Assembly: GCF_030345075.1 (NCBI RefSeq)
Contig: NZ_CP128361.1
Span: forward strand, 1,736,001-1,800,000
Reading direction: 5' to 3'
From: Solwaraspora sp. WMMA2065
GTDB lineage: Bacteria > Actinomycetota > Actinomycetes > Mycobacteriales > Micromonosporaceae
Length of the DNA: 64,000 nt
Part shown: positions 26,984-64,000 of the stretch, piece by piece
How positions within the stretch are numbered: the first letter of the stretch is position 1
Layout: each line of letters starts with the position of its first letter
Made by a program: the position numbers and the translations under genes
The notes under the pieces: model-generated
What the model was told of the DNA's origin: nothing
The model's input: the letters and a program-made list of their open reading frames with translations, nothing else
Databases searched by the model: none

Positions 26984-27511
26984 TCAGCCGGACCGTACCT
27001 GTCGGTCGCCGCTGCGGGCATCGGTGACGGTGCCGAAGGTGCGATGGAAGAAGATCAGCGGTTGGTGGTCGCGAAGGCTCTCAGCGGAGCGGATTTCCGC
27101 GACAACGAGCGTGTGGTCGCCGGCCGGGTGCTCGACGACCGGTACACATTCCAGATGTGCGAGCACGCCTGGGAGGACCGGGACACCGGCACTGGACGGC
27201 CGCCACGGCACTCCGGCCAGGCGTTGCGGGCCGGGTGCGGCGAGCGTTCTGCCGAGGTCCTGCTGGTCGGCCGCGAGAATGCCGATCCCGAACCGGGCCG
27301 CCTGTCGGATGTCCGGCCAGGTCGTGGACTGCTCCCCCACGCAGAACCCGACCAGCGCCGGCCGCAGCGAAATGGAGAGGAAGGAGCCGACCAGCAGGGC
27401 GCGGGGGCCTCGGTCGGTGGCGGCGGTCACCCCGACGACGCCGGTCGGATAGGCGCGCATCACCTCGCGGAACCGGCCCGCCGTCACCGTCGGGCCCGAT
27501 CGTTCAGTCAT
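26984..27511 (-). CDS. Flavin reductase family protein
   Basis: A 175-residue FMN-binding protein of the split-barrel flavin:NAD(P)H reductase family. It shows REVMRAYPTGVVGVTA at the N-terminus, GSFLSISLRPALVGFCV (flavin-contacting region), FGIGILAADQQDL, and AHLECVPVVEHPAGDHTLVVAEI. These enzymes supply reduced flavin to two-component monooxygenases. The start overlaps the end of zur by 8 bp, so both are one transcript. It could feed the luciferase-like monooxygenase at 43.8-45.0 kb, an inference from context only. Confidence 0.88.
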   Translation of the reverse strand: MTERSGPTVTAGRFREVMRAYPTGVVGVTAATDRGPRALLVGSFLSISLRPALVGFCVGEQSTTWPDIRQAARFGIGILAADQQDLGRTLAAPGPQRLAGVPWRPSSAGVPVLPGVLAHLECVPVVEHPAGDHTLVVAEIRSAESLRDHQPLIFFHRTFGTVTDARSGDRQVRSG

Positions 27512-27917
27512 CGCCGCGCCGGGCGCAGTTGATGCAGACCCCGAAGAGCTCGAGCATGTAGTTCACGTCGGTGAAGCCGTGTTCATCGGCGACCTGACCG
27601 ATCCACTCCTGGGTGGGTGGCCCGGCCACCTCGACGGTACGGGCGCAGAGCCGGCACACCAGGTGATGATGCTCGGTCTGGCTGCACCGGCGGTACAGCT
27701 GCTCGCCACCCGCGCCGTGCATCACGTCGACCTGACCGGCATTCGCGAACACCTGCAGGGTCCGGTAGACGGTGGTCAGGCCAACGGTCGAGCCCTGGGC
27801 ACGTAGCTCTGCGTACAGCTGTTGAGCACTGCGGAACTCGGCGGTCGCGTCCAGCAGGGTGAGGATCTCGTTGCGCTGCCGGGTGGATCGGCCGGGCTCC
27901 GCAGGCGACTGCTTCAC
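27504..27917 (-). CDS. zur: Zinc-responsive repressor Zur (Fur family)
   Basis: A 137-residue Fur-family repressor that binds DNA when loaded with zinc. The winged-helix region carries RSTRQRNEILTLLDATAEFRSAQQLYAEL and GLTTVYRTLQVFANAGQVD. The metal region carries EHHHLVCRLCARTVEV, ELFGVCINCARRGDD: two CxxC pairs that hold the structural zinc, as in mycobacterial and streptomycete Zur. I chose the GTG at 27917 with AAGGGGG upstream; the earlier in-frame ATGs overlap the palindrome. The perfect palindrome at 27947-27961 suggests autoregulation. Presence of Zur-box-like sites in the metallophore and ribosomal promoters makes it the likely controller of the right half of the window. Confidence 0.93.
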   Translation of the reverse strand: MKQSPAEPGRSTRQRNEILTLLDATAEFRSAQQLYAELRAQGSTVGLTTVYRTLQVFANAGQVDVMHGAGGEQLYRRCSQTEHHHLVCRLCARTVEVAGPPTQEWIGQVADEHGFTDVNYMLELFGVCINCARRGDD

Positions 27918-27946
27918 GACACCAACCCCCTTGTACATAACGATTC

Positions 27947-27961
27947 CCATTATCATAATGG
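27947..27961. promoter_or_regulatory. Fur/Zur-type operator upstream of zur
   Basis: CCATTATCATAATGG is a perfect 7-1-7 palindrome, 30 bp upstream of the zur GTG. It is followed leftward by a further AT-rich half-site-like ATAACGATT. It differs in sequence from the two other Zur-like sites here but has the same geometry. Confidence 0.75.
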
Positions 27962-28042: not shown

Positions 28043-29602
28043 TCAGTCGCCGCCGTCCGGTCGCCGTACGTCGGCCCTCGCCGGTGTCCGCGCGACGGCG
28101 ACGTCCGGCTTGTCACGTCGGGACGGAACCGTCGCCAGCGCGACCGCCACTCCGACGGCCGCCGCCCCGGCCGCCACCCAGGAGACCGTGGCCAGGCCCT
28201 CGGCGAACGCGACTCGGGCCAGCACCTCCACCTCAGGCGGCAGGTCGGTGAACCGCCCGGCCGACGTCAGATCCCGCAGCCGCTGGGCCGTCGGCCCGGC
28301 CGCCCCGGCAGTCCGTATCGCGTCGTCAGACAACCCCGAGCCGACCCGGCCGGCGAGCACCGCGCCGAAGACGGCGGCACCGACCGCCGTGCCGAGTGGG
28401 AAGAACGCGTTCGCCGTACCGCTGGCCATCCCCGCCCGCTGCGGCGGTACCACCGACACCGAGATGCCCATCAGCGGCGCGAACAGCAGTCCCATGCCGG
28501 CGCCGATCAGTACCAGGCCCGGCAATGCGACCAGCCATGTCGAGTCGGCGCCGACCCGGGCGACGAGCAGGTAGCCCACACAGATGACGACGAAACCGGT
28601 GACCACGACCGTACGGTTGCCGTACCGGTGCTGCAGCCGCGCCACCACGAGGCTGCCGGCCACGATCGCCGCCGACAACGCGGACAGTTGCAGCCCGGCC
28701 TGCAGCGGCGAGTAACCGAGCATGCCCTGCAGCCACAGCACCAGGTACGGCATCGTGCCGAACCCGACCGCCCGGGTCAGGAAGCTCAGCACGCTCACCC
28801 CGGTGAAGGCCCTGATCCGAAACAACGCCAGTTGCAGCATCGGATCAGCGACCCGCCGCTCGGTGGCGACGAACAGCACGAGGGTGACCAGCGCGACGCC
28901 GGCGGCGACCAGCGTGACCGGACGCGTCCATCCGTCGTCGGCGCCGGAGATGACCGCCAGGTTGACCGCCCCGAGCAGCAGCACCCCGAGGACCGCCCCA
29001 GCGAGGTCGGGCCGACGGCCCCGCTGCCGACCGGCGGCCGGCAGCCAGCGCAGCGCGCCGAACAGCACGAACGCGCCGGGCAGCAGGTTCACCAGGAAGA
29101 TGGCCCGCCAACCGAGACTCGACACCAGCGCACCGCCGACCAGCGGCGCGATGGCCGCGGAGACGGCGGCGGTCGCGCTGAACACTCCCATCGCGGCGTT
29201 GCGCCGCTCCCCCGGGTAGGCCGCCGCCAGCAACGGCAACGCGGGCGCGAAGATCAGCGCGCCACCGATGCCCTGCACCGCCCGGCCGGCGATCAACACC
29301 CCCGGGTCAGGCGCAACGCCGCACAGCAGCGAACCGACGGTGAACAGCATCACGCCGGCGACGAAGATCCGCCGCCGACCGAGCCGGTCCGACACCGATC
29401 CGCCGACGAGCAGCAAGGCCGCGAACAGCAGCGGGTACGCGTTGACCGTCCACTGCAGCTGCGGGAGAGTAGCCGACAGATCAGCGGCGACCGCCGCCAA
29501 CGCGACGTTGACGATGGTGATGTCCATCGTGGTGATGGCGGCGGCGACGCTGACCGTGACCAGGGTGCGGCGGGCGGCCGTAGTCGAATCATGCGGTGGC
29601 AA
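28043..29602 (-). CDS. MFS transporter (DHA2-type drug/siderophore exporter)
   Basis: A 519-residue major facilitator, probably 14 transmembrane segments. Family signatures are TTMDITIVNVAL in TM1, LQWTVNAYPLLFAALLLVGGSVSDRLGRRRIF (motif A, between TM2 and TM3), and GRAVQGIGGALIFAP. The frame opens at a TTG at 29602 that overlaps the end of the methyltransferase gene by 14 bp; no better start is visible. It is the last gene of the leftward metallophore operon, so export of the product is the most likely job, alongside the two ABC transporters at 53.6-57.1 kb. Confidence 0.88.
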   Translation of the reverse strand: MPPHDSTTAARRTLVTVSVAAAITTMDITIVNVALAAVAADLSATLPQLQWTVNAYPLLFAALLLVGGSVSDRLGRRRIFVAGVMLFTVGSLLCGVAPDPGVLIAGRAVQGIGGALIFAPALPLLAAAYPGERRNAAMGVFSATAAVSAAIAPLVGGALVSSLGWRAIFLVNLLPGAFVLFGALRWLPAAGRQRGRRPDLAGAVLGVLLLGAVNLAVISGADDGWTRPVTLVAAGVALVTLVLFVATERRVADPMLQLALFRIRAFTGVSVLSFLTRAVGFGTMPYLVLWLQGMLGYSPLQAGLQLSALSAAIVAGSLVVARLQHRYGNRTVVVTGFVVICVGYLLVARVGADSTWLVALPGLVLIGAGMGLLFAPLMGISVSVVPPQRAGMASGTANAFFPLGTAVGAAVFGAVLAGRVGSGLSDDAIRTAGAAGPTAQRLRDLTSAGRFTDLPPEVEVLARVAFAEGLATVSWVAAGAAAVGVAVALATVPSRRDKPDVAVARTPARADVRRPDGGD

Positions 29603-30320
29603 GGACGACCACCTCTGGGGCTCCGGCGCCGGTGACGGCGGCGGCGGGCCGGCTGACCATGCCGGACTCGCGGGCGAGCTGGTCGCCGTCGATGGTGTGC
29701 CAGTCGTAGCTGTCGGTCACCTCACGCACCAACCGACCGGAGCGGTACACCCGCCAGGTGGTGGTGAACCGCATCAGGTCACCGCCGGCCGGGCTACCGG
29801 CGACCCACCACTCGTAGTCGTGCCGGCCGATCGAATCGCGGATCGACAGCGCCGACGGGATCTCCCGCGGCTGCCGTACGCCCATCAGCTCGACCACCAC
29901 CACACCGCCGGGCGCGAGCCGGCTCCGTAGCAGCCGCCACAGTCGGATCCGCGCTGCTTCGTCGAGGTGACCGGCGACGCCGAACACCACGGCGGCGCAG
30001 ATGGTGGCGGGCAGCGGCAGGTCCGGTGCGGCGGCGTCGACCACGGTGACCCGTTGCCGCAGCCCGTCGTCGGCCGCGACCCGGCTGGTCAGCACCGCCC
30101 GCATCGCGGTGGACGGCTCGACCGCCACGATCCGCGCGCTCGGCAGCGCCGCGGCGATGATCTCGGTGACCCGACCGGTACCGGCACCGATCTCGACGAC
30201 CGGCCCGGCTGACGGGTCGACACCGGTGAGCGCGGCGGCCAGGGCCGGTCCGCTGCTGGTCGCCTGTCGGGCGGCGACCATCTCGTAGAACTCGGCCACC
30301 GGCGAGTAGTAGTCACGCAC
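29589..30320 (-). CDS. SAM-dependent methyltransferase
   Basis: A 243-residue class I methyltransferase from the GTG at 30320, chosen because GGAGG lies seven bases upstream. The SAM-binding motif is VVEIGAGTGRVTE; ARIVAVEPS follows as the acidic post-II region. The sequence is clearly homologous to the C-terminal domain of the reductase fusion at 32371-34233: both share PVVEIGAGTG, AMRAVLTSR, GVAGHLD, YEWW and a similar end. One likely derives from the other by duplication. Target unknown; N- or O-methylation of the metallophore is plausible. It is followed without gap by the MFS gene. Confidence 0.9.
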   Translation of the reverse strand: MRDYYSPVAEFYEMVAARQATSSGPALAAALTGVDPSAGPVVEIGAGTGRVTEIIAAALPSARIVAVEPSTAMRAVLTSRVAADDGLRQRVTVVDAAAPDLPLPATICAAVVFGVAGHLDEAARIRLWRLLRSRLAPGGVVVVELMGVRQPREIPSALSIRDSIGRHDYEWWVAGSPAGGDLMRFTTTWRVYRSGRLVREVTDSYDWHTIDGDQLARESGMVSRPAAAVTGAGAPEVVVLATA

Positions 30321-30374
30321 CGGCTCTCCTCCGATCGGACGGGTTGGCATTGACGGTCGAAACGCGGGTAGCGG

Positions 30375-31160
30375 TCACGGCATGCTGGGCCAGGCCACCG
30401 GGGTGCGGGTCAGCACCGGATCGATTTTGCTCAGGATGGCGGAGATGACGGCGCGCCGCTGCGGCACCAGGTAGAAGTGGTCGCCGGGGAACGTCCGCAC
30501 GTCGAACCGGCCACTGGTCAGCTGGCCCCAGCTGTACGCCTGCCCGTCGTCGAGCTCCGGATCGGCATCGCCCCGCAGCACCATGACCGGGCAGTCCAGC
30601 GGCGCCGCCGGCGCCGGCAGGTACGTCTCGATGAGACGGTAGTCGTTGCGGACGTAGCCCAGCACCGCCCGGCGCAGCTCCGGATCGGCCAGCACCTCGT
30701 CGTGGGTGCCGCCGAGCCGGTTCAGCTCGGCGCAGAGTCCGTCGTCGTCACGCCGGTGCACCTCGCCGCCGACCACCTCGCCCGGAGCGGGGCGGCCGGA
30801 GACGAACAGCCACTGTGGCTGCCGGGCGCCGAGGCGGCGCAGCCGCTGAACCGTCTCGTACGCCACCGCCGTACCCATGCTGTGACCGAAGACCAGGTAG
30901 GGCCGGTCGGCGAGGCGCGCCACGGCGTCGGCGACCGGCGCCGTCAGCGCGTCCATGTCGTCGACAAGCGGATCGGCGAACCGGTCCTCCCGTCCCGGAT
31001 ACTGCACGCAGACCAGCTCGACCGAGGGAGGCAGCAGCGCGTCCCATGCGCGGAAGCTGCCGGCACCGCCGCCAGCGTGCGGGAAGCAGATCAGCCGTAC
31101 GGCGGCCGCCGGACGCCGCTGGTAGCAGCGCAGCCACGGGCCGTGGATCGCGGTGTTCAC
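30375..31160 (-). CDS. Type II thioesterase
   Basis: A 261-residue alpha/beta hydrolase that clears misloaded acyl groups from NRPS carrier proteins, as YbtT and PchC do. It has LICFPHAGGGAGSFRAW (oxyanion region), the nucleophile in GHSMGTAVAYE with Ser94, the loop CPVMVLRGDADPELDDGQAYSWG with a candidate Asp, and the catalytic His in FPGDHFYLV. The GTG start at 31160 overlaps the P450 stop (GTGA), so translation is coupled. Confidence 0.94.
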   Translation of the reverse strand: MNTAIHGPWLRCYQRRPAAAVRLICFPHAGGGAGSFRAWDALLPPSVELVCVQYPGREDRFADPLVDDMDALTAPVADAVARLADRPYLVFGHSMGTAVAYETVQRLRRLGARQPQWLFVSGRPAPGEVVGGEVHRRDDDGLCAELNRLGGTHDEVLADPELRRAVLGYVRNDYRLIETYLPAPAAPLDCPVMVLRGDADPELDDGQAYSWGQLTSGRFDVRTFPGDHFYLVPQRRAVISAILSKIDPVLTRTPVAWPSMP

Positions 31161-32374
31161 CAGGTCACCTGCATCGCCTGGATGCCGAACGTCGCCGCGT
31201 CGTTGTTGAACTCGAGATCGTCGAACTCGCCGGCCAGCCGTAGATTCGGGATGCGCCGGATCAGGGTGCCGATGGCGATCTCCAGCTCCAGCCGGGCCAG
31301 ATTCTGACCGATGCACTGGTGCACCCCGTAGCCGAAGGCGACGTGGTGCCGGTTGGTCCGGTCGAAATCCAGCCGCTGCGGGTCCGGGAACACCTCCGGG
31401 TCGTGGTCGGCGGCGGCGAGCAGGGCGATGATGCCGTCGCCCGCCTGGATGTGCGTCCCGTCGAGGTTGATGTCGGCGGCGGCGACGCGCAGCGGGATCG
31501 AGTCGGCGACGGACAGGAGACGCAGCAGCTCCTCGACGGCCGCCGGCATCAGCTCGGGCTCGGCGCGCAGCCGGGCCAGCTGCTCGGGGTGGCGCAGCAG
31601 CAGCAGAGTGCCGAGCGCGATCATGCTGGTGGTGGTCTCCCTTCCGGCGACGATGGTGATCCCGATCGCGGAGAGCAGCTCGTGCCGGGTCACCACACCG
31701 GCCCGCAGGTGGTCGACGACCAGCTTGGACAACAGGTCGTCGCCGGGTGCCTGCTCCCGGGCGGTGATCAGCCCGTCCAGCATCCGGAACATGCTGGCGA
31801 GGGCGGCGCTGACTTCCTCGGCGCTGCTGGTGCGTCCACCGGAGATGCGGGTCACGTCGCGGAAGAACTCGATGTCGTCGGTGGGCGCGCCGAACAGGCC
31901 CAGTACGGTCGTCGTGGAGACCGCGTTGGCAAACGCGGTGACCAGATCCACCGGCGAACCGCTGTCCAGCATGTCGTCGATGAGCCCGTCGACGGTGTGC
32001 TGGATCGTCGGACGCATGTCCCGGATCCGTTTGACGGTGAACTCGGCCTGGAGCATCCGGCGGAAGCGGGTGTGCTCCGGCGGGTCGGTGCGGATGAACG
32101 GCCGCGATTTCGCACCGGCCTCCTGCTCACCGATGCCCATCGCCGGAAAGTTCGGATGCCGGATGTCGGCGCTGACCCGGGGGTCGGCCAGCAACGCCCG
32201 CACGTCGGCGTAACGAGTGACGATCCACGGCTGTTTGCCGGTGGGCAGGGTCACCCGGGACACCGGTTCGGCGGCGCGTAGTGCGGCGTAGCGCTCCGGC
32301 GGAGCGAAGGGGCACTCCCTCGGTACCGGAAACGCCGGCGGTGTCTGGGTCTCGGCGGGAAGAGCCTTGGTCAT
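31157..32374 (-). CDS. Cytochrome P450
   Basis: A 405-residue soluble bacterial P450. Landmarks are the I-helix oxygen-binding segment AGRETTTSM, the K-helix EELLR, and the heme loop FGYGVHQCIGQNLAR, with Cys near residue 353 as the iron ligand. N-terminal WIVTRYADVRALLADPRVSAD and HTRFRRMLQAEFTVKRI are typical of the CYP107/105-like group. It sits between the reductase fusion and the thioesterase, overlapping both by 4 bp. A tailoring hydroxylation or oxidation of an azoline ring or aryl group is likely; coelibactin-type clusters also carry a P450. Confidence 0.94.
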   Translation of the reverse strand: MTKALPAETQTPPAFPVPRECPFAPPERYAALRAAEPVSRVTLPTGKQPWIVTRYADVRALLADPRVSADIRHPNFPAMGIGEQEAGAKSRPFIRTDPPEHTRFRRMLQAEFTVKRIRDMRPTIQHTVDGLIDDMLDSGSPVDLVTAFANAVSTTTVLGLFGAPTDDIEFFRDVTRISGGRTSSAEEVSAALASMFRMLDGLITAREQAPGDDLLSKLVVDHLRAGVVTRHELLSAIGITIVAGRETTTSMIALGTLLLLRHPEQLARLRAEPELMPAAVEELLRLLSVADSIPLRVAAADINLDGTHIQAGDGIIALLAAADHDPEVFPDPQRLDFDRTNRHHVAFGYGVHQCIGQNLARLELEIAIGTLIRRIPNLRLAGEFDDLEFNNDAATFGIQAMQVTW

Positions 32375-34233
32375 CGGGACGTTCCTTCCTGGTCGGTAGA
32401 GGTCCGGGGTGCCGGCACGAGCACGCCGATCGGCGGTCCGCCGGTGCCGGCCTGTGGAATGTCGTGCAGCGGCATATCGGACTCGGCGGCGATGTCAGCG
32501 AGGGTGAGGGTGTACCAGTGGTAGTGGTCGGCGACCTCGCGCACGGCCGTACCGTCCTCGGTCGACACCCGCCATGTCGTGCGCAGGCGCATCCGGTCCG
32601 GGCCGTCGGGTTCACCGGAGAACCACCACTCGTAGCGCTGAGCGCCGACCTCGACGCGGGACAGCCGGGTGGGGTCGAGCACGAGCGGCCGGTCGATGGC
32701 CATCAGTTCGACGACGATCCGTCCGCCGGGGGCCAACCGTTCGGCGAGCCGCCGCCACAGGCGTACCCGGTCGGGCTGGTCGAGGTGGCCGGCGACTCCG
32801 CAGACGACGGCACCGCTGATGGTGTCCGGCAGATCAAGGTCCGGGGCGGGTTCGGCGCAGACGGTGATCCGGCGGCGCAGGTCGGGATCCCGGTAGATCC
32901 GGCTGGTCAGCACGGCGCGCATGCCGGTGGCCGGTTCGTGGGCGAGGATCTCCAGGTCCGGGAAGGCCCGGGCGAGGGCGACGGTGACCAGGCCGGTCCC
33001 GGCACCGATCTCGACCACCGGGCCGGCGGCGGTGTCGGTCCCGGCCAGTGCCGCGACGACCGCGGGAGCGCTGCCGGTCGCGACGTGCGCGGCAGCGGCG
33101 AGGTCGAAGAACTCGGCGGTCGGCGAGTACGGCTCCGCCGCGTCGCTGCCGTCGGTCGGCTCAGCGGCTCCCTCGGTGGGCTCGGTGAGATCGGCGATGG
33201 TGATCCGCGACGGGGTCGCCGGTCGCACCACGTCCGGTGGGCCGAGCCGGGCCGCCAGCTCCGACCAGATCCGGCAGGCGGTGATGTCGTACTGGGCGGA
33301 CCGCAGCGGATCGCCACTACGACGCACGGCGTCCGCGAACCCCCGTAGCGCGCGCCGCACCGCCTCCGGCCAGAGCCGGTCGAAGACGTCGCGCTGGCTG
33401 CCGGCGGCGGTGCCCGGCAGCGGCGCGCTGCCCAGCTGGTCGAGCTGCCCGCCGGTGAAGACCAGCCGACCGTCGGTGTCCCGGTCGGCGTGCAGCGTCG
33501 GTGTCCACAGCACCGGTCCATGGGTGTCGGCCAGGGTCAGCACCCCGGCCCGGGTGCCGAGACTGATCCGGTGCCAGAACAGGGCATGGTTGTCGCGGTC
33601 GGCCGGGTCGAGCTCGTGGTGCACCCGCAAGGTCAGCGGCACACCGCCGACCTGGCCGGTGACCGACCGCAGCGGACCGCCGGCGACCGCCTCGTCGACG
33701 CGCCACGGACGCAGACCGCCGAGCGCGGCACCCAGCACGTCCACGAACGGATGCAGCACGTGCACCGGGCTCGCGGCGTCGACGAACACCAGCTTCTCGC
33801 GGGAGCGGAGCCGGGCCGCTGCGGCGAGGAACCGACGGACCGGTTCGACGTGCCGGTAGTGGGCGTTGACCCGGTACTGCACGCCGTGGCGGCGCGCGGC
33901 CCGCAGGCAGTCGACAAGTTCGTCGTGGTGCACCGGGTGCTCCTGCAGCACGTGCACGCCCCGGGCCAGTAACGCCCGGGCGAGGTCGGTGCCCGCTCCG
34001 CCGGAGATGGTGGAGCCGACGACGACGCAGGCGATGTCGATCTCGTCGGCGTCGACCGTGTCCAGGTTGTCGTGGTGGGGCACCCCGTACTCGTCGGCCA
34101 GTGCCCGGGAGGCGGTCCCGCCCCGGCTGAGCACGCCGGCGAGGACCAGGTCGGGTGCGAGGTCGGCGACCGCGCGCAGGTAGAACCGGCCGAAGTTGGT
34201 GCCGCAGACCAGCACCCGCAGCGGTGTACTCAC
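32371..34233 (-). CDS. Thiazolinyl imide reductase fused to a SAM methyltransferase
   Basis: A 620-residue two-domain protein. Residues 1-345 are the Gfo/Idh/MocA-like reductase of the PchG/Irp3/YbtU family, which reduces a carrier-bound thiazoline to thiazolidine with NADPH. Signs are RVLVCGTNFGRFYL at the Rossmann start, GGTASRALADEYGVPHHDN, VVGSTISGGAGTDLARALLARGVHVLQEHPVH and VNAHYRHVEPVRRF. After a linker rich in Thr, Glu and Pro (residues about 350-366), residues 368-620 are a class I methyltransferase (VVEIGAGTGLVTVAL, ILAHEPATGMRAVLTSR, YEWWFSGEPDGPDRMR). The reductase alone is about 350-370 residues in other clusters, so the second domain is an addition. A thiazolidine NH made by the first domain would be an obvious methylation site for the second. 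Confidence 0.92.
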   Translation of the reverse strand: MSTPLRVLVCGTNFGRFYLRAVADLAPDLVLAGVLSRGGTASRALADEYGVPHHDNLDTVDADEIDIACVVVGSTISGGAGTDLARALLARGVHVLQEHPVHHDELVDCLRAARRHGVQYRVNAHYRHVEPVRRFLAAAARLRSREKLVFVDAASPVHVLHPFVDVLGAALGGLRPWRVDEAVAGGPLRSVTGQVGGVPLTLRVHHELDPADRDNHALFWHRISLGTRAGVLTLADTHGPVLWTPTLHADRDTDGRLVFTGGQLDQLGSAPLPGTAAGSQRDVFDRLWPEAVRRALRGFADAVRRSGDPLRSAQYDITACRIWSELAARLGPPDVVRPATPSRITIADLTEPTEGAAEPTDGSDAAEPYSPTAEFFDLAAAAHVATGSAPAVVAALAGTDTAAGPVVEIGAGTGLVTVALARAFPDLEILAHEPATGMRAVLTSRIYRDPDLRRRITVCAEPAPDLDLPDTISGAVVCGVAGHLDQPDRVRLWRRLAERLAPGGRIVVELMAIDRPLVLDPTRLSRVEVGAQRYEWWFSGEPDGPDRMRLRTTWRVSTEDGTAVREVADHYHWYTLTLADIAAESDMPLHDIPQAGTGGPPIGVLVPAPRTSTDQEGTSR

Positions 34234-35366
34234 AGCGTGCCCTCCTCGGTGTCGTCGGCGGTGTCGCCGTCGACCAGCCGCACGGTGAGCGGCTCCCCCG
34301 ACCCGCGCAGCGCGGCGACCGCGGCCGCCGGGTCCAGCACGTCGGCGGCGAAGTGCACTCCGGGTGGTACGTCGCCGTCGAGTACCGCCACGGCGGCCAG
34401 CGCACCGACCAGCCCGGTGAGGCGGTAGCTGCTGGTGGCCCGCAGCACGGCGGTCCGCTCGACGGGGACGCCGCCGCGCGTACCGCCCATCGTGAAGACC
34501 ATCTGGTAGTAGGGGCAGCGGCCGGCGAGGTCCAGCTCAGCGGCGCGGATCATCCGCCGGGCGAGGTCCGCCTCGTCGGCCCCGACGCTGGCGGCGGCCG
34601 GCAGCGCGGCCAGCAGCGTCCGCACCTGGGGCCCCGGGTAGACGTTGAGCCAGTCGACGTCGCGCAGCCGCAGCGCACGGGCCAGTCGGCGGGTCTCGGC
34701 GCTGAGGAACGGTTGCACCGCGACGGATCCGGTGAACTGCGGCACGGTCGCTTCCTCGGCCGGACGCAGCGCCCGGGACCGTACCGCCCCGCCCCGCCAG
34801 GCGGCGTTGGCCTCGCCGTACGCCGCACCGGCGGCACCACCGGAGCGCAGCGACAGCATCATGTCGATGGCGACCACCGGGGAACAGTGTTCGACACCAC
34901 CGACCCAGGCGGTCAGCGTGCCGACGTCGTCGAACTCGGTGCTGGCGAGCCAGCGCGGCAGCAGGCTGGACAGGCCGGGCAGGGTGCCGGCGGACAGCAC
35001 CACCGTACGGCCGCTGTCGGGGACACCGCCGCCGGTCAGGGCCTCGTGGACCGGGTCGTCACCGGCCACGTCGACACAGTGCGCGTCGGCCGCCAGCGCC
35101 GCCGCCGCGACCGCCTCCTTCAGCTCGTACGTCGGCCCGGCACAGTTGACCACCAGGGAGGTGCCGGTGCAGAAGTCCGCCAGAGCGGCCGGATCCCGTA
35201 CGTCGACCTGGACCGTTTCGATCTTGGCACCGGGTAGATCGGCGGCGACGCGCCGCAGTGGATCGCCGCTGCGGGCGCCGAGGCGCAGCGGCCCGACGCC
35301 GAGGCGGTGCAGGTGCGCAACGGCGCCCTGACCGACCGATCCGGAGGCCCCCAGTACACCGATCAT
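34230..35366 (-). CDS. Saccharopine dehydrogenase-like NAD(P) protein
   Basis: A 378-residue protein with an N-terminal Rossmann fold, IGVLGASGSVGQGAVAHLHRLG (residues 2-23), and LVVNCAGPTYELKEAVAAAAL, as in the saccharopine dehydrogenase NADP-binding family. The C-terminal half (SAGTLPGLSSLLPRWLAS, AWVGGVEHCSPVVAIDMM) follows related trans-acting enoyl-reductase-like proteins. The ATG at 35366 overlaps the NRPS stop (ATGA), and its own stop overlaps the reductase start. Its role is unknown; a second redox step on the azoline scaffold or on the aryl group is the best guess. Confidence 0.82.
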   Translation of the reverse strand: MIGVLGASGSVGQGAVAHLHRLGVGPLRLGARSGDPLRRVAADLPGAKIETVQVDVRDPAALADFCTGTSLVVNCAGPTYELKEAVAAAALAADAHCVDVAGDDPVHEALTGGGVPDSGRTVVLSAGTLPGLSSLLPRWLASTEFDDVGTLTAWVGGVEHCSPVVAIDMMLSLRSGGAAGAAYGEANAAWRGGAVRSRALRPAEEATVPQFTGSVAVQPFLSAETRRLARALRLRDVDWLNVYPGPQVRTLLAALPAAASVGADEADLARRMIRAAELDLAGRCPYYQMVFTMGGTRGGVPVERTAVLRATSSYRLTGLVGALAAVAVLDGDVPPGVHFAADVLDPAAAVAALRGSGEPLTVRLVDGDTADDTEEGTL

Positions 35367-40894: not shown

Positions 40895-40948
40895 CGGGCT
40901 CCGCCTCGTAGTCACGGTCTGTTCGGGTCACTCCACCCAACGACTTGT

Positions 40949-57225: not shown

Positions 57226-57531
57226 CTACCAGGACGCTTTGCGGATGCCGGGCAGTTCACCGCGGAGCGCCATCTCACGGAAGCGCACCCGTGACAGGCC
57301 GAACCGGCGCAGTACGCCACGGGGCCGACCGTCGATCGCGTCGCGGGTCCGGCGCCGGACCCTACTGGAGTCGCGGGGCAGTGCGGCGAGGTCGCGGACC
57401 GCATCGGCCCGTTGGTCGGGGTCCGTGCCGGGTGCCGAGATCAGTTTCTTGAGGGCGGCCCGCTGGTCGGCGTGGCGGGCGACCAGGGTCGCCCGCCGGT
57501 TCTCCCGCTCGACCAGGCTGCGGCGGGCCAT
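57226..57531 (-). CDS. rpsN: Ribosomal protein S14, zinc-independent paralogue
   Basis: A 101-residue S14 with the usual end [25 protein letters not shown]. The cysteines that hold zinc in the C+ form of S14 are absent: there is no Cys in the protein. Such C- paralogues replace the zinc-containing version under zinc shortage and free ribosomal zinc. It is the last gene of the L28-L33-S14 operon, with its start codon sharing one base with the L33 stop (TGATG). Confidence 0.95.
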
Positions 57532-57698
57532 CAGCGCTCCTCCCGGAACTCGACGTGTCGCCGGACAATCGGATCGTACTTGCGCAGCACCAGCCGGTCG
57601 GGGTCGTTGCGGCGGTTCTTGCGGGTGACGTAGGTGTACCCGGTGCCGGCGGTGCTGCGCAGCTTGATCACGGGCCGGATCTCGGTGCTACGAGCCAT
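57531..57698 (-). CDS. rpmG: Ribosomal protein L33, zinc-independent paralogue
   Basis: A 55-residue protein, [20 protein letters not shown] followed by [20 protein letters not shown]; it ends VEFREER. No cysteine remains, whereas the C+ form has two CxxC pairs. The ATG at 57698 overlaps the L28 stop and its stop overlaps the S14 start (TGATG on both sides), giving a tightly coupled operon. Confidence 0.95.
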
Positions 57699-57931
57699 CA
57701 GATCTTCACTCCCCGGGCACGCAGGCGGGCGACGACGGCGTCAATGCCGTCGCGGTCGATGATCCGCAGGCCGGTGGTACTCACGTTGAGACGGATGGCT
57801 CGCCCGTCGGCGAGCCGGAACCGGCGGCGCTGAACGTTGGGGTTCCACCGACGACGGGTGCGGCGGTGGGAGTGGGACACCGCGTTGCCGAAGCTCGGCC
57901 TGGCACCGGTGACATCACAGATGTTCGACAT
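57698..57931 (-). CDS. rpmB: Ribosomal protein L28, zinc-independent paralogue
   Basis: A 77-residue L28: [36 protein letters not shown], and [19 protein letters not shown]. Only one Cys is present in the N-terminal site (CDVTG instead of CxxC), so it should not hold zinc. I chose ATG 57931; an upstream frame extension to 58009 covers the operator. First gene of the operon, starting 17 bp from the Zur-like site. Confidence 0.95.
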
Positions 57932-59280: not shown

Positions 59281-59303
59281 GTTCAGGCCCGGCCGATTCC
59301 TCG

Positions 59304-60815
59304 TCACCGGCCGCCCGCCGCATCGAGCAGGGCCCGGGTGACCTCATGCCGCGGTGAGCTGAGCACCGCCAGGGTCGGGCCGGACTCCACCGCCGTGCCG
59401 GCGTCGAGCACGACGACCGCGTCGGACCACCCGGCCACGGCGGCCAGGTCATGGGTGATCAGCACTACCGCGAGCCCCAGGTCACGACGCAGCTCGGCGA
59501 GCAGCCCCAGCACCGTACCGGCCGTCGCGACGTCGAGCGCGGACGTCACCTCGTCGCAGATCAGCACGCGGGGCCGGCAGGCCAGCGCCCGCGCGAGGTT
59601 GACCCGTTGACGCTCCCCACCGGACAGTGTGCCCGGTCGCCGATCGGCGACGCCGGCCGGCAGATGCACCCGGTTCAGCAACTCGCCCGCCGCCGCAAGG
59701 GCCGCTCGCGGGTCGAGGCCACGCAACTGCCGCAGCGGACGCAGCAGGGCGTGGCCGACGGTCTCCCGGGGGTTCAGCGCGCCCGCGCTGTCCTGGGCCA
59801 CCAGCTGCAGGTCACGTCGCTGGGCGGGACTGCGTCGCCGGGTGGTCTCCGGCAGTGGCGCACCGTCGAGCAGGACGGCTCCGTCATAGGGATGCAGCCC
59901 GACCAGGCATCGCGCGAGCGTCGACTTGCCGGCACCCGAGGGGCCGACGACAGCGAGGCAACCCCCAGCAGCGACGTCGAGATCCACCCGGGCGAGCGCC
60001 GTACGCCGGCCGTGCCGGGTGCCCAACCCCCGGACCGCGAGCACCGGGTCGGCCGACCCGGTGGCGGGGCCGGGCCCGGCCGGTGCCGGCGCGGCCAGGA
60101 CCCGGTCGGGCGGTCCGGTGACCGCCGGGCGACCCCCGTCCAGGACGACCACCTCGTCGCTGACCGCCCGGACCAGGTCCGGGTCATGGCTGATCAGCAA
60201 GGTGGCCCGGTGCCCGGTCAACGATCTGATCAGCTCCTGTACACCACGGGCCAGCACCGGGTCGAGGCCGGCGGTCGGCTCGTCGAGGACAAGCAGGTCC
60301 GGGTCGGCCGCGAGGGCGATGGCGAACGCGACACGCTGCGCCTGACCGCCGGAGATCTGATGCGGGTACCGGCGCAGGAAGTCCCGGTCGGCGGGCAGCC
60401 GTACGGCTTCCAGCAGGTGCGCCACCGTCGCACCACCCTGGGTCTCGCCGCGCCGTGCGGCGTCGGCGACGGCCTCGCCGAGCTGGCTGGCGAGCCGGCG
60501 GGACGGATTCAACGTGGCGGCGGCGTCCTGTGGCAGGTAGGCGACATGTCGATGGCGGACCGCCGCGGCACCGGCCGAGGTGAACGGATCGTATCGGGCG
60601 ACCCGGACGGCGCCGGCCCGCAGCGCCAGTCCGGGCCGGACGTGTCCCAGCAGCGTCAGCGCCGTCGTGCTCTTGCCGGATCCGGAACGTCCCATCATCG
60701 CCACCACCTGGCCGGCCGCTATCCGTAGCCGCACCCCGTCCACGATGGGCGGCCCACCCGCAGCCGGGCCGACGACGAGGCCGTCGATCGTCGCGAGCTG
60801 CCGATCGGCGCTCAC
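59304..60815 (-). CDS. Peptide/nickel-type ABC importer, two ATPase domains fused
   Basis: A 503-residue protein with two complete ABC ATPase domains, corresponding to NikD plus NikE or DppD plus DppF. Domain 1: Walker A GRSGSGKST, signature ISGGQAQRVAFAIAL, Walker B LLVLDEPTAGLDP. Domain 2: GPSGAGKST, LSGGERQRVNLARAL, VLICDEVTSALD. The GTG at 60815 overlaps the permease stop (GTGA). Family members import peptides, nickel or opine metallophores (CntDF). Its place next to a zinc-repressed gene set suggests uptake of a metal complex. Confidence 0.93.
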   Translation of the reverse strand: MSADRQLATIDGLVVGPAAGGPPIVDGVRLRIAAGQVVAMMGRSGSGKSTTALTLLGHVRPGLALRAGAVRVARYDPFTSAGAAAVRHRHVAYLPQDAAATLNPSRRLASQLGEAVADAARRGETQGGATVAHLLEAVRLPADRDFLRRYPHQISGGQAQRVAFAIALAADPDLLVLDEPTAGLDPVLARGVQELIRSLTGHRATLLISHDPDLVRAVSDEVVVLDGGRPAVTGPPDRVLAAPAPAGPGPATGSADPVLAVRGLGTRHGRRTALARVDLDVAAGGCLAVVGPSGAGKSTLARCLVGLHPYDGAVLLDGAPLPETTRRRSPAQRRDLQLVAQDSAGALNPRETVGHALLRPLRQLRGLDPRAALAAAGELLNRVHLPAGVADRRPGTLSGGERQRVNLARALACRPRVLICDEVTSALDVATAGTVLGLLAELRRDLGLAVVLITHDLAAVAGWSDAVVVLDAGTAVESGPTLAVLSSPRHEVTRALLDAAGGR

Positions 60816-61648
60816 CGGTCCGCCCACCGGGCGGCGAGGTCGTCGGCGAGCAGGTTCACCGACACGGTGAAGAGCACCAGCAGCAGCGCCGGAAGCAGCA
60901 CCGGCCAGACCGTCAGGTTGATCCCGGCCGCGTTCTCACTGACCATCCGGCCCCAGTTCGGGGTGGGCGGACCCGCGCCGAGGCCCAGGAAACCGGCGGT
61001 GGCGGTAAGGTGCACGGCGGCAGAGAACCGGATGCCGGCCTCGGCGAGCATGGTGCCGACGATGTTCGGGACGAGGTCGTACCGGATGATCCGCCACCGG
61101 CTGTCCCCCCGCGCCCGCGCGGTGTCGACGAACCCACGCACCGCGACCTGCCAGGTCGCCGCACGCAGGACCCGCACCGAGAACGGCAGGCTGACCAGCG
61201 CCACCCCGACGAGGACCGCGCTGTCGCTGCCCGGAAAGCCGGCCGCCAGCACCAGCAGCACCAGCAGCCCGGGCACGACCGCGACGACGTCCACCACCCG
61301 GACGACCAGTTCGCCGGTCCGTCGGTCGATCAGTCCGGCGAACACGCCGAGCAGCGCCCCGCACAGGCTGGCGAGAGCGGTCGCGCCAATAGCGAGGAGT
61401 ACCACGGCACGACCGCCGTGCAGCAGGCGACTCAGCACGTCGCGACCGACCGCGTCGGTGCCGGCCGGGTACGCCCCGGTAGGGGCCTCGAAGGGCAGTC
61501 CCACCGGTGCTGTCGGTGACCTGCTGCCCAGCAGTGGGCCGGCCAGCGCGACGAGCACGACGCCGACGGCTGCGAAGCCGGCGAGCAGCAGGGTCACCCG
61601 GGAGTGGGCGACCCGCCCGACCGCCATCGCCGGCGCGGTATTGGTCAT
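60812..61648 (-). CDS. ABC importer permease, DppC/NikC type
   Basis: A 278-residue inner-membrane permease. It shows TDAVGRDVLSRLLHGGR near residue 70, which is the DppC/NikC family motif, and the EAA-type loop DTARARGDSRWRIIRYDLVPNIV that contacts the ATPase. The segment GFLGLGAGPPTPNWGRMVSE is also typical of the family. About six membrane segments. Overlaps both neighbours by 4 bp. Confidence 0.94.
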   Translation of the reverse strand: MTNTAPAMAVGRVAHSRVTLLLAGFAAVGVVLVALAGPLLGSRSPTAPVGLPFEAPTGAYPAGTDAVGRDVLSRLLHGGRAVVLLAIGATALASLCGALLGVFAGLIDRRTGELVVRVVDVVAVVPGLLVLLVLAAGFPGSDSAVLVGVALVSLPFSVRVLRAATWQVAVRGFVDTARARGDSRWRIIRYDLVPNIVGTMLAEAGIRFSAAVHLTATAGFLGLGAGPPTPNWGRMVSENAAGINLTVWPVLLPALLLVLFTVSVNLLADDLAARWADR

Positions 61649-62607
61649 GACCGCCCCCGTGACGCGGGATTCAGCGCGAGTTGGGCGAGGTCACCGAGCA
61701 GCAGCAGGACCAGCGCGGTGGCGCAGGTCGCCAGGGCCAGCCCCTGCACCATCGGCACGTCCCGGTTGGCCACCGCCTGCTGAAGCTCGTAGCCGATCCC
61801 TGGGTAGTTGAACAAGGTCTCGACGACCACCGCGCCACCGATCAGACCGGCGAACATGACCGCGGTCACCTGTACGGCGGGTGCCACTGCGTTCGGCAGC
61901 ACGTGTCGCACGGCGAGCCGGAAACCGGTCACCCCCCGCAGCCGGGCCGCTTCGATGTACGGTGCCGAAGCAATCTCCGCGACCGAGGCCCGCAGCAGCC
62001 GTGCGGCGGCGGCGAGCGCCGCGACCGCCAGCGCCGCGACCGGAAGCACCAGGATTCGGGGCTCGTCCCACGGCCGACCGCCGAGCGGCACCAGGGAAAC
62101 CTCGGGTAGCAGACCGAGGCCGGCGGCGAACACCGCCACCAGCAACGCCGCGACGAGGAACTCGGGGACACCGACCGCGACCAGGGTCGCGGTGCTGAGC
62201 AGCCGGTCCGTACGCCGGCCGGCCCGCATACCGGCGACCAGGCCGACCGCGACGGCCAGCGGCACCGCGAGCGCCATCGCCAGGGTGGTCAGCAACAGGC
62301 TGTTCGGCAGCCGGTCAACCAGCACCTCGGTCACCTCGCGGCGGCCGACGTACCCGGTGCCCAGGTCGCCGCGCAGGGCGGCAGTCGCCCAATCGACGTA
62401 CCGCTGCACCGGATCCACGTCGAGGCCGAGCTCCCGGCGGAGCTCTTCCCGATCGGTCGTGGTCGCGTCGGCACCGGCGACGACGCCGACCGCGTCGCCC
62501 GGCAGCACCTCGGTCACGGTGAAGATCAGCACCGACAGTACGGCGAGGACCAGCACCGCGGCGGCGGTACGCCGGGCGACCAGCGCGGCGACCCGGAGCA
62601 GACTCAC
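61645..62607 (-). CDS. ABC importer permease, DppB/NikB type
   Basis: A 320-residue permease with six hydrophobic segments. It has the N-terminal LPGDAVGVVAGADATTTDREELRRELGLD stretch and YVDWATAALRGDLGTGY typical of DppB/NikB, and the EAA loop EAARLRGVTGFRLAVRHVLPNAV. Overlaps the substrate-binding protein stop by 4 bp. It pairs with the DppC-type permease to form the channel. Confidence 0.94.
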   Translation of the reverse strand: MSLLRVAALVARRTAAAVLVLAVLSVLIFTVTEVLPGDAVGVVAGADATTTDREELRRELGLDVDPVQRYVDWATAALRGDLGTGYVGRREVTEVLVDRLPNSLLLTTLAMALAVPLAVAVGLVAGMRAGRRTDRLLSTATLVAVGVPEFLVAALLVAVFAAGLGLLPEVSLVPLGGRPWDEPRILVLPVAALAVAALAAAARLLRASVAEIASAPYIEAARLRGVTGFRLAVRHVLPNAVAPAVQVTAVMFAGLIGGAVVVETLFNYPGIGYELQQAVANRDVPMVQGLALATCATALVLLLLGDLAQLALNPASRGRS

Positions 62608-64000
62608 GCCAGGTATGCCTGCTCGAAGCTGCTGAACGGTTCGTCGCGCACGCCGTACACGGCGGTGGTGTGCCCGTTGATCGACGGCGCGAAGACCGGG
62701 ATCACCTGGTTGCCTTCCTCCCAGATCACCCGCTGCGCCTGTACCGCCGCTTCCCGCCGCTGGTCGGCGTCGACCGCCCCACGGGCCTGCGCGACGAGCT
62801 CGTCGATGTCCGGCCGATTGAAACCGAAAGTGGACGGCGAGCCGGCGGTTCGGGTCGCCGCGTAGCTGGACAGCGGCGGCACCGGCGGGGTGTAGCTGGC
62901 CGCGAACGGCAACTGGGTGTACGCGGCGAAGTCGGAGAACAGTTGTCCCGGCGGGCGCTGGTCGAGGGTGGCGTCGATGCCGACCGCCTTGAGGTTCTCG
63001 ACCACCACCGTCGCGGTCTCGGCCATCCCGGCCACCTCGGGCGCGGTGGTGACGGCGACCTTGACCGTACCGACCCCGGCCTCGGAGAGCAGCGCCTTCG
63101 CCCGGTCGGGGTCGTACGGCCGCTGTTCGATCTCTTCGGCGTAGTCGGTGAAGCCGAGGGAGGGCAGGTCGTTGCCGACGAAAGCACGACCGAAGAAGAC
63201 GTTACGCACGATCGCTTCGCGGTCGATCGCGTACTTGACCGCCTGCCGGACCCGGACGTCGGCGAACGGGGTGAAGGACAGATTGAGCCCGAAGGACAGC
63301 GACGTCGCGTACGGCAGGTCGGAGACGGCCACCGCGAACCGTTCGTCCTCCCCCACCGTCCGGGCGGCAACCGGCCCGATGTCGCTGACGAAGTCGACCT
63401 GTCCGCCGGTCAGCGCGTTGACCCGGGCGGCGGCGTCCGGGATGGTCCGCAGTTCGAGCCCGTCCAGGTACGGCCCGCCGTCGAGGGCGAGGCCGTAGTA
63501 GTCGTCGTGCCGGGCGAAGGCGGCGCCCTGACCAGGCTCGAACTCGACCAGCTTGAACGGCCCGCAGGTCGGCATGTCCGGGGTGAACTCGGTGGTGCCG
63601 TCCTTGAAGACCAGGCTGCTCTGACAGAGCACGAGCCGGCCGTCGGCGATCGGACGCAGCGTCGGCAGCACGAGGGTCAGGTCGTCGTCAACGCTCGCGG
63701 CGGCCAGGTCGAAGTTCTGCGACGGCGGCTTGAGGAACGGCAGCGAACCGAGGGTGACCGGGGCGTTGAGCGAATAGAGCACGTCGCGGGCGGTCAGAGT
63801 GGTTCCGTCGGTGAAGGTGACTCCGGGGCGGACCTTCACGGTGTACGTGCTCAGATCGTCGCTGATGTCGATGCGCTCCAGCACGCCGTAGCGGACGCCG
63901 TGCTCCGCTGTCGGATCGAGCACCCCGAGTGCGCCGTGCATACTGCGGGCCCGGACGTAGTCCAGACCCGTCGGCCCGAAGAGGTAGTTGAGCGTTTCAG
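62604..64000 (-). CDS. ABC importer solute-binding protein (SBP_bac_5), N-terminus beyond right edge
   Basis: The last 465 residues of a family-5 substrate-binding protein (NikA/OppA/CntA fold). Seen are HGALGVLDP, YTVKVRPGVTFTDGTTLTARDVLYSLN, FKLVEFEPGQGAAF, VRQAVKYAIDREAIVRNVFFGRA and QRPPGQLFSDFAAYTQLPF. The signal peptide and the first strands are off the window. No conserved His pair for nickel is apparent by eye. With the permeases and ATPase it forms a full importer. Ligand unknown: a metal-chelate, possibly the metallophore made in this locus. Confidence 0.93.
   Translation of the reverse strand, partial: ETLNYLFGPTGLDYVRARSMHGALGVLDPTAEHGVRYGVLERIDISDDLSTYTVKVRPGVTFTDGTTLTARDVLYSLNAPVTLGSLPFLKPPSQNFDLAAASVDDDLTLVLPTLRPIADGRLVLCQSSLVFKDGTTEFTPDMPTCGPFKLVEFEPGQGAAFARHDDYYGLALDGGPYLDGLELRTIPDAAARVNALTGGQVDFVSDIGPVAARTVGEDERFAVAVSDLPYATSLSFGLNLSFTPFADVRVRQAVKYAIDREAIVRNVFFGRAFVGNDLPSLGFTDYAEEIEQRPYDPDRAKALLSEAGVGTVKVAVTTAPEVAGMAETATVVVENLKAVGIDATLDQRPPGQLFSDFAAYTQLPFAASYTPPVPPLSSYAATRTAGSPSTFGFNRPDIDELVAQARGAVDADQRREAAVQAQRVIWEEGNQVIPVFAPSINGHTTAVYGVRDEPFSSFEQAYLA

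Follow-up and report, generated by a model that had tools for sequence, protein, structure and literature searches.

A probable coelibactin-type zincophore locus of Solwaraspora sp. WMMA2065 with a predicted 3-hydroxypicolinate starter in place of salicylate

Coelibactin has been put forward as the first zincophore of bacterial origin, and passages of reports from 2012 and 2023 describe its structure as unsolved (PMC3430247; PMC10127202). Its cluster in Streptomyces coelicolor comprises SCO7676-7692, where the SCO7681/7682 promoter is bound by Zur (passage of PMC5472717). The sorangibactin cluster srb of Sorangiineae MSr11367 is a described relative; in excerpts of PMC10127202 it carries the salicylate synthase SrbB, a LysR regulator and the glyoxalase-like protein SrbJ. 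Another starter pathway takes the place of salicylate synthase in the karamomycin-like cluster of Sporomusa, a thiazol(id)ine metallophore cluster; according to part of its description, a partial menaquinone pathway (naphthoate) is used there, in contrast to the lysine-derived 3-hydroxypicolinate (3-HPA) proposed here (eLife 2026, PMC12971057). The published route to 3-HPA, as outlined in a section of PMC11481915, requires four enzymes: lysine 2-aminotransferase, FAD dehydrogenase, FMN monooxygenase and FMN reductase.

We analysed a window of 64,000 nt from Solwaraspora sp. WMMA2065 (GTDB: Bacteria; Actinomycetota; Actinomycetes; Mycobacteriales; Micromonosporaceae), positions 1,736,001 to 1,800,000 of the forward strand of contig NZ_CP128361.1 (GCF_030345075.1), in which an initial annotation had flagged the interval 27504-64000. 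We consider it probable (about 0.75) that this locus serves to synthesise, export and take back up a coelibactin-type zincophore capped by 3-HPA, not salicylate.

Gene content and the coelibactin-type core

Gene families were assigned by profile searches, except for L33, which was named by reading. The features are as follows (window coordinates, strand):

26984-27511, -: flavin reductase, proposed FMN reductase partner of the monooxygenase; Pfam Flavin_Reduct 122.8 bits; 8 bp overlap with zur
27504-27956, -: Zur-type regulator, second Zur copy in the genome; FUR 98 bits
28043-29602, -: DHA2-type MFS efflux transporter; TIGR00711 248.5 bits, above cut-off
29589-30350, -: stand-alone methyltransferase MT2; Pfam Methyltransf_25 46.5 bits; G1333 orthologue 61%
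30375-31316, -: type II thioesterase (GHSMG); Pfam Thioesterase 175.9 bits from residue 74; true start probably ~31100
31157-32374, -: P450, CYP105N1 orthologue (66% identity; PDB 3tyw 565 bits), proposed oxazoline dehydrogenase
32371-34233, -: thiazolinyl imide reductase fused to methyltransferase; TIGR01761 308.5 bits, above cut-off
34230-35366, -: saccharopine-dehydrogenase-like (SacDH-like) protein, SrbE type; Pfam Sacchrp_dh_NADP 52.5 bits on the longer ORF; G1333 orthologue 57%; start estimated
35363-40915, -: NRPS-B, with TubC_N docking, Cy, A with methyltransferase (code DLYNMSLIWK, Cys), PCP and TE (nucleophile motif GYCLG)
40949-40963, no strand: predicted Zur box TGAAAATGACATTCA between NRPS-B and AMP ligase; 2 mismatches to TGAAAATGATTTTCA
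41020-42726, +: aryl-AMP ligase, proposed 3-HPA activator; TIGR02275 620.9 bits, under the cut-off of 723.55; pocket FNFTFACPG
42704-43891, -: FAD amine oxidase (cassette), proposed piperideine-2-carboxylate oxidase; Pfam DAO 156 bits; NF008425 312 bits, above cut-off
43833-44975, -: luciferase-like monooxygenase (cassette), proposed picolinate 3-hydroxylase; Pfam 199 bits
45156-46508, +: DegT-family aminotransferase (cassette), proposed L-lysine 2-aminotransferase; Pfam 318 bits
46541-46792, +: 4-OT-type tautomerase with Pro-1 (cassette); Pfam Tautomerase 34.9 bits
46789-53595, +: NRPS-A, with ArCP, Cy-A(DLYNLGLIHK)-PCP and Cy-A(DLYNLSLIWK)-PCP; profile search
53592-55352, +: ABC transporter half 1; profile search
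55349-57076, +: ABC transporter half 2; profile search
57226-57531, -: ribosomal protein S14, 0 cysteine by reading; Pfam 81.9 bits
57531-57698, -: ribosomal protein L33, 0 cysteine; family by reading; G700 copy 98%
57698-57931, -: ribosomal protein L28, one cysteine and no CXXC by reading; Pfam 85.3 bits
57976-59280, +: CobW-family GTPase, MRF/ZigA-like; NF047431 311 bits (cut-off 375), NF038288 213 bits (cut-off 600)
59304-60827, -: NikD-NikE-like fused ATPase; TIGR02769 343 bits, above cut-off
60812-61648, -: NikC-like permease; Pfam BPD_transp_1
61645-62607, -: NikB-like permease; NF045470 225.6 bits, under the cut-off of 350
62604-64000, -: NikA-like solute-binding lipoprotein, running beyond the window end; SBP_bac_5 227.8 bits; complete ORF in L032

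The MFS gene, the type II thioesterase and the continuation of nikA past the window end had been missed earlier, as had the flavin reductase, which lies mostly outside the flagged interval.

The coelibactin cluster was read through G1333, a cluster from Streptomyces with a P450 that matches CYP105N1 at 99.7% identity. The comparison shows a shared core set: AMP ligase, NRPS-A, NRPS-B with cysteine TE, SacDH-like protein, reductase-methyltransferase fusion, P450, type II TE, methyltransferase, two ABC halves and NikABCDE. Both NRPSs, ArCP-(Cy-A-PCP)2 and Cy-A(MT)-PCP-TE, are orthologous to those of G1333, and a CYP105N1-type P450 is present, as expected of a coelibactin-type cluster (next structure match 348 bits). 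The cysteine nucleophile of the TE recurs as GYC[LV]G in 8/8 family clusters and 12/12 further clusters, that is, in all 20 read. Judged by sequence, the cluster is orthologous to the Zur-controlled coelibactin cluster. The Zur-controlled, coelibactin-like character assigned initially is thereby upheld by the P450 orthologue, the matching gene content and predicted Zur boxes recurring at the same promoter in relatives, and the two NRPSs (ArCP, three Cy-A-PCP modules, TE), aryl-AMP ligase, reductase, P450 and methyltransferases listed there were all recovered by profile searches. The reductase-methyltransferase fusion, however, had been counted as an addition; it is not one, because it is common to the window and G1333, and it occurs in coelibactin-type clusters.

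The window alone has the cassette, the DHA2 efflux gene, its own Zur, S14/L33/L28 and the MRF-like protein, whereas a salicylate synthase adjoins the G1333 cluster and the stretch read there holds no 3-HPA cassette. Sorangibactin, compared by the published description rather than by srb sequence, shares the domain order, the Ser/Cys/Cys logic, the SacDH-like SrbE, P450, Irp3-like reductase, methyltransferases and cysteine TE (excerpts of PMC10127202); it differs in having SrbB in place of the cassette, in its regulator and in SrbJ, no counterpart of which was recognised among the window proteins scanned. Pfam scans of both NRPSs show no PKS domain, unlike a yersiniabactin-type system. The yersiniabactin machinery consists of HMWP1/2 with a PKS module.

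Zur, predicted Zur boxes and zinc-related genes

Profile and structure matches place the FUR-family regulator claimed at 27504-27956 nearest to actinobacterial Zur (among PDB structures, 147.8 bits for Mycobacterium tuberculosis FurB and 145 for S. coelicolor Zur, compared with 63 for the best Fur). It matches the genome's other Zur, encoded near znuABC-like genes, at 56%. Zur sites had been proposed in the two key divergent promoters. Of these, only the one at the NRPS-B/AMP-ligase promoter is convincing (40949, 10/11 positions), and a predicted box lies there in 10/10 scanned clusters whose sequence covers that promoter. The DegT/monooxygenase promoter gives at best 7/11, the same as shuffled sequence, and the box scan gave no convincing site in the promoter that serves DegT, tautomerase, NRPS-A and the transporters. 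The L28/MRF promoter reaches 8/11 at best and its equivalent in the relative G700 9/11. A further 10/11 box lies at 64259 (window frame), upstream of nikA and just beyond the window end; relatives likewise carry predicted boxes at their NRPS/AMP-ligase and nikA promoters. As a chance control, sites of at least 10/11 numbered 0 in 10 simulated windows versus 2 in the real window. One of these two sites is located inside a phosphoketolase gene.

The remaining assignments held: S14 and L33 lack cysteine and L28 has one without a CXXC motif, the CobW-like protein is nearest to MRF and ZigA though below both profile cut-offs, the NikA-type importer was matched by profiles as NikA-NikB-NikC-NikDE, and two ABC transporter halves correspond to the YbtPQ-like pair.

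A cassette where salicylate synthase is missing

The main additions to the coelibactin-type set are the DegT aminotransferase, tautomerase, FAD oxidase, luciferase-like monooxygenase and flavin reductase. The first four had been noted as added genes, and each was found by profile search; rather than an unexplained enzyme set, the extra genes together most likely constitute a starter-supply cassette for 3-HPA, present where salicylate synthase is missing. By family and context, the DegT, DAO, LLM and Flavin_Reduct genes match the four published enzyme types, their activities being predicted. The tautomerase has no counterpart in that pathway as outlined in the cited section, and it immediately follows DegT in 27/27 cassettes with Pro-1 kept. 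The flavin reductase is present in the five family clusters with the cassette and missing from the three without; none was found near the Saccharopolyspora spinosa cluster, and Isoptericola shows a weak match.

A salicylate synthase over cut-off adjoins 19/20 fusion-bearing clusters without the cassette, versus 0/8 with it, and none occurs anywhere in the WMMA2065 genome; the locus is therefore a variant of the coelibactin-type cluster. In G698 and SID3343 a salicylate synthase is encoded elsewhere in the genome. On a tree of 20 clusters the exchange takes two switches, too few for significance of the swap. G204, more loosely related and with its reductase unfused, lacks both a near cassette and a salicylate synthase above cut-off, so other starters exist. 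The single exception among the 20 cassette-free clusters is a fragmented draft (G1246; 1040 contigs, 95% complete); it carries the fusion and lacks both a close monooxygenase and a salicylate synthase above cut-off.

Linked cassette genes also turn up in other kinds of cluster, which have no coelibactin-type NRPSs. Streptogramin-like, siderochelin-like and desferrithiocin-like loci share the DegT-tautomerase and monooxygenase-FAD oxidase pairs but have another kind of assembly line; NRPSs with a Thr code are found in some of these contexts, including one in Streptomyces griseoviridis, the viridogrisein species. The monooxygenase is 60-66% identical to copies in the streptogramin- and siderochelin-like loci L156-L158, L164, L177, L182, L198 and L199 (63% in the S. 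griseoviridis locus L198, where DegT reaches 60%), and the FAD oxidase 48-51% to copies adjoining the monooxygenase in L156-L158. Across 47 named loci, monooxygenase identity was at least 55% in 31, below 50% in 15 and between these values in L180. Within the sequence covered, DegT or FAD oxidase lay near the monooxygenase in 30 of the 31 versus 0 of the 15; L180 had neither above threshold. AMP ligases above 400 bits in those 3-HPA loci are 51-66% identical to the window ligase, and the streptogramin-type pocket differs (FNFTWGCPG). The pocket here (FNF..ACPG) is common to cassette and salicylate coelibactin-type clusters and does not separate them, which counts against the 3-HPA reading.

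Proposed product and its alternatives

From these gene families, orthologies and predicted boxes we infer every reaction, the starter, the product, its metal and the transport directions. On the best reading, the product is a Zur-repressed zincophore in which a 3-HPA starter precedes an oxazol(in)e and two thiazol(id)ines. On zinc starvation, the nikA operon and the NRPS-B/AMP-ligase promoter would be freed of Zur. DegT would transaminate L-lysine at C2, the product cyclising to piperideine-2-carboxylate, whose imine and enamine forms the tautomerase may interconvert; the FAD oxidase would aromatise it to picolinate, and monooxygenase plus flavin reductase would add the 3-hydroxyl. The AMP ligase would load 3-HPA onto the NRPS-A carrier domain, and three Cy-A-PCP modules would form azolines from Ser or Thr and two Cys. 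The P450 would oxidise the oxazoline, reductase and methyltransferases would yield N-methyl-thiazolidines, and the TE, with its cysteine nucleophile, would release the chain, perhaps in the form of a homocysteine thiolactone, as in sorangibactin. In support of a 3-HPA starter, salicylate-type machineries, those of pyochelin and bilothiazole, reportedly take fed 3-HPA.

That the product is instead a salicylate-capped coelibactin-like zincophore, with monooxygenase, FAD oxidase, DegT and tautomerase modifying the peptide, as the initial annotation had it, is very unlikely. The AMP ligase does keep the cysteine of a salicylate ligase pocket (HNFALACPG), not the DhbE serine; against this stand a genome without salicylate synthase over cut-off and the same genes linked in clusters that lack coelibactin-type NRPSs. 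It is also quite unlikely that the cassette makes another related heteroaryl acid, such as a variant of 3-HPA or picolinate lacking the hydroxyl: what the enzyme families settle is the type of reaction and not the exact substrate, and the FAD oxidase bears little resemblance to NikD (56 bits, versus 202 for sarcosine oxidase, among solved structures), which counts against 3-HPA, but the monooxygenase identities to streptogramin- and siderochelin-like loci speak for it. An ortho hydroxyl is moreover usual in chelators of this kind.

The iron chelator desferrithiocin lends some weight to a further possibility, that a 3-HPA-capped product serves as an iron or broad-metal siderophore and no zincophore. 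Sorangibactin, from a coelibactin-like cluster, is called siderophore-like in behaviour in excerpts of PMC10127202, and siderochelin a ferrous siderophore in a section of PMC11481915. We regard this as unlikely in view of the predicted Zur boxes at NRPS/AMP-ligase and nikA promoters in relatives, the second Zur and cysteine-poor ribosomal protein genes within the locus, and a scan for the iron-box consensus that tolerated up to 3 mismatches and gave 0 matches.

The proposed 3-HPA-capped zincophore offers a concrete starter prediction, 3-HPA from lysine for salicylate, and the swap is directly testable. If true, nature makes the salicylate-to-3-HPA exchange that chemists obtained by feeding. 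We speculate, at even odds, that such compounds form a class of natural zincophores in which a coelibactin backbone bears a 3-hydroxypyridine (desferrithiocin-like) head, and that this class arose more than once via a five-gene lysine-to-3-HPA cassette replacing salicylate synthase, with the tautomerase as an unrecognised fifth enzyme and the pyridine donor shifting metal choice to zinc. The conserved tautomerase adds a candidate step to a pathway described as four-enzyme. The predicted chelator is absent by name from the main text of the eLife 2026 detection paper, where 'hydroxypicolin' occurs 0 times (PMC12971057). By our own arithmetic its mass would be shifted by +0.9953 Da (CH to N) relative to the phenol analogue, and Saccharopolyspora spinosa and Isoptericola halotolerans are named organisms in which to search.

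Gene content and kinship with coelibactin-type clusters

The window spans positions 1736001-1800000 of one 6.74-Mb contig, and profile searches bear out nearly all of the gene set that the initial annotation had listed for it.

Gene order of the metallophore locus, with further genes noted on either side
Left of NRPS-B (Cy-A(MT)-PCP-TE): SacDH-like protein, reductase-methyltransferase, P450, type II thioesterase, methyltransferase, DHA2 efflux protein, Zur, flavin reductase
Right of the AMP ligase, minus strand: FAD oxidase and luciferase-like monooxygenase
After this pair, plus strand: DegT aminotransferase, tautomerase, NRPS-A (ArCP and two Cy-A-PCP modules), two ABC transporter halves
Beyond the transporter halves: S14, L33, L28, CobW-like GTPase, Nik-type importer, with nikA extending beyond the window end
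2479-5095: STAND/NB-ARC-like gene with TPR repeats, adjoining a DDE transposase
13939-16935: 998-residue ORF with strong GC3 bias and neither a Pfam nor a PADLOC match
~74485-78000 (14485-18000 of L032, the stretch reaching right of the window): second pair of ABC transporter halves, ~51% identical to the cluster's pair

The coelibactin-like gene content proposed in the same annotation holds in a comparison with G1333, the Streptomyces coelibactin-type reference, in which core, transporter and importer genes all have counterparts at 51-66% identity: the NRPSs, AMP ligase, SacDH-like protein, P450, thioesterase, methyltransferase, ABC transporter halves, Nik importer and the thiazolinyl imide reductase-methyltransferase protein, here called the fusion. 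The fusion had been considered an addition specific to the window; as G1333 has a counterpart, it belongs instead to coelibactin-type clusters. The window P450 scores 565 bits against CYP105N1 (348 for the next structure), to which the G1333 P450 is 99.7% identical. The coelibactin-type clusters of G943, G1358 and G1138 are also adjoined by a distant MRF-like GTPase (33%).

The adenylation codes of the window are, in order, DLYNLGLIHK, DLYNLSLIWK and DLYNMSLIWK. We take the latter two to be Cys-like, and the first presumably fits Ser or Thr. The first code of G1333 is DLWQLGLVHK; for sorangibactin, Ser is assigned from feeding and a model (PMC10127202). The thiolactone of sorangibactin is reported to have been hydrolyzed by formic acid (PMC10127202). 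The thioesterase motif GYCLG of the window contains the rare cysteine described for sorangibactin and coelibactin (PMC10127202), and GYC[LV]G is present in all eight fusion-bearing clusters of the bacterial family (family clusters) as well as in 12/12 further clusters.

The proposed 3-hydroxypicolinate cassette and its copies elsewhere

The enzymes required for 3-hydroxypicolinate (3-HPA) biosynthesis are given in the literature as lysine 2-aminotransferase, FAD dehydrogenase, FMN monooxygenase and FMN reductase (mBio 2024, PMC11481915). Our family survey covered 354 genomes, among which eight have co-located matches for the two fusion halves; all eight clusters were read. Five of them carry the complete cassette of DegT aminotransferase, tautomerase, FAD oxidase, monooxygenase and flavin reductase, and three carry none of the five genes.

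Scanning the named genomes with the monooxygenase alignment yielded 47 loci. Among the 31 with at least 55% identity, DegT is found in 22, the FAD oxidase in 22 and at least one of the two in 30; in the remaining locus, L187, the DegT match is only partial. Neither gene occurs at any of the 15 loci below 50%, nor at L180, which lies between 50% and 55%. These loci span at most 10 kb on each side or reach to contig ends, so that a gene missing at a locus edge is no proof of its absence. Eight loci at 48-54% monooxygenase identity (G107, G1018, G992, G1064, G779, G1048, G794 and G821) lack a tautomerase, and DegT matches there do not exceed 32% identity.

In all 27 DegT-bearing cassettes (22 named loci, four family genomes and the window) the tautomerase lies directly 3' of DegT on the same strand, and all 27 proteins keep Pro-1, as Met-Pro in 26 and as GTG-started Val-Pro in L159. 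The enzyme may catalyze the imine-enamine exchange of piperideine-2-carboxylate. Such a conserved tautomerase is a novel detail, the published 3-HPA scheme counting four enzymes (PMC11481915).

The species to which the viridogrisein cluster belongs (PMC11481915), Streptomyces griseoviridis, carries a close monooxygenase locus, where an NRPS module has a Thr code; this code recurs at eight other loci among the 21 examined for codes. By Pfam, L172 of Streptomyces sp. LaPpAH-108 (the same region as L112) encodes a single Cy-A-MT-PCP NRPS, the layout that we would expect for desferrithiocin, and we reason that the locus is desferrithiocin-like. At L168 (S. griseoviridis), L172 and also L175, the cassette adjoins an NRPS related to NRPS-B. 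Other cassette loci contain ketosynthase-like proteins, for example L164 of Amycolatopsis, which reads as siderochelin-like from its sequences. NikD, expected as the closest relative of the FAD oxidase, is outscored by sarcosine oxidases. For the monooxygenase, the best PDB match is the rishirilide protein RslO1 (7BIP, 431 bits), which suggested an epoxidase, a role that was set aside.

Cassette versus salicylate synthase

Salicylate synthase, searched in the genomes as TIGR03494 above cut-off, adjoins 19 of 20 cassette-free fusion-bearing clusters, on the same contig and within ~5 kb of mapped cluster genes, and by position none of the eight cassette clusters (window genome, G698, G700, G670, G671, S. 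spinosa, Isoptericola halotolerans and Streptomyces SID3343). The cassette-free set consists of three family clusters and 17 from the 392 Streptomyces searched; its extension took the count from 12/12 to 19/20. Nine of the 17 were read, and the other eight were judged by search alone, the cassette being scored as absent when the contig carrying the cluster gave no monooxygenase match at E 1e-40 (off-contig matches occur in G1305, 57%, and G908, 40%). In the one exception, the 1040-contig draft G1246, no salicylate synthase exceeds the cut-off. Among cassette genomes, G698 has a salicylate synthase 0.8 Mb from its cassette cluster, and SID3343 has one on a separate contig of a draft assembly, where adjacency to the cluster is possible.

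The count omits family genomes with reductase-only or methyltransferase-only matches, together with two more loosely related genomes, G204 and G050, in which the reductase is unfused. G204 (C1 around 1934263; NRPS-A 52%, NRPS-B 47%) has no salicylate synthase above cut-off in its genome and no near cassette; G050 has two salicylate synthases. In G698, at C1 ~2540680-2554841, 12 kb separate a salicylate synthase from another homologue of the thiazolinyl reductase, the second in this genome, perhaps marking a second thiazoline-type cluster besides the 3-HPA variant.

Six core proteins of 20 clusters (eight with and 12 without the cassette) were used for a quick tree, which, with the salicylate label assigned by hand from genome searches, requires two switches. 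SID3343 nests among Streptomyces clusters, Isoptericola forms a long branch of unsure placement, and the cassette position differs in both. The two independent pairs give a sign-test p of 0.5 and are too few for a test.

Salicylate machinery is known to take up 3-HPA upon feeding, as in pyochelin analogues (PMC10296737), and bilothiazole F provides a further precedent (PMC11934131). Calculated from 507.1189 for sorangibactin A, [M+H]+ of its 3-hydroxypyridyl analogue would be near 508.114, and Thr in place of Ser would raise it by 14.016. The AMP-ligase pocket, tried as a starter discriminator, fails to discriminate, and it neither supports nor excludes a starter change. The open-licence papers searched, largely at listing level, contain no report of a 3-HPA-capped coelibactin-type variant.

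Zur proteins and Zur boxes

Judged by its nearest structures, the FUR protein of the locus is a Zur. It is the second genomic copy; the other, 56% identical, adjoins znuABC-like genes and is probably the housekeeping copy. In that stretch (L034, genome 2838000-2848000) the AztC/ZnuA-like and AztA-like matches fall below cut-offs, and a Zur-type box precedes the binding-protein gene. No match to the iron-box consensus TTAGGTTAGSCTAACCTAA was found with up to three mismatches allowed. At most two mismatches to TGAAAATGATTTTCA occur at four places in the whole genome.

Zur-type boxes with at most two mismatches
40949: between the NRPS-B and AMP-ligase genes
64259, just right of the window: before nikA
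64605, just right of the window: before the choice-of-anchor M protein gene
Genome position 6053692 (L035): before a protein whose start resembles that of the choice-of-anchor M protein

The reversed TGAAAATGATTTTCA pattern, used as a control, gives one match per strand, versus 10 and 11 for the true pattern.

Cluster promoters were further scored against the published S. coelicolor Zur motif (PMC5472717), out of 11 positions. A predicted site of 9 to 11 lies between the NRPS and AMP-ligase genes in all ten scanned clusters that cover this promoter, and one precedes nikA in seven of the eight family clusters, the eighth (G491) having one 515 bp upstream. Since 9/11 sites also turn up inside genes, the weight rests on the repeated promoter position. 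Zur-type sites had initially been placed in two key divergent promoters. The site between NRPS-B and the AMP ligase (40949) stands. The DegT/monooxygenase promoter of the window reaches 7/11 at best, not beyond chance (shuffles mostly 7-8). A second box there was therefore dropped, leaving NRPS-A and the transporters with no Zur box to account for their control; this promoter scores 9/11 in Isoptericola only. The large choice-of-anchor M surface protein (L032:4804-8064, ~64804-68064 in the window frame, plus strand) adjoins the nik operon.
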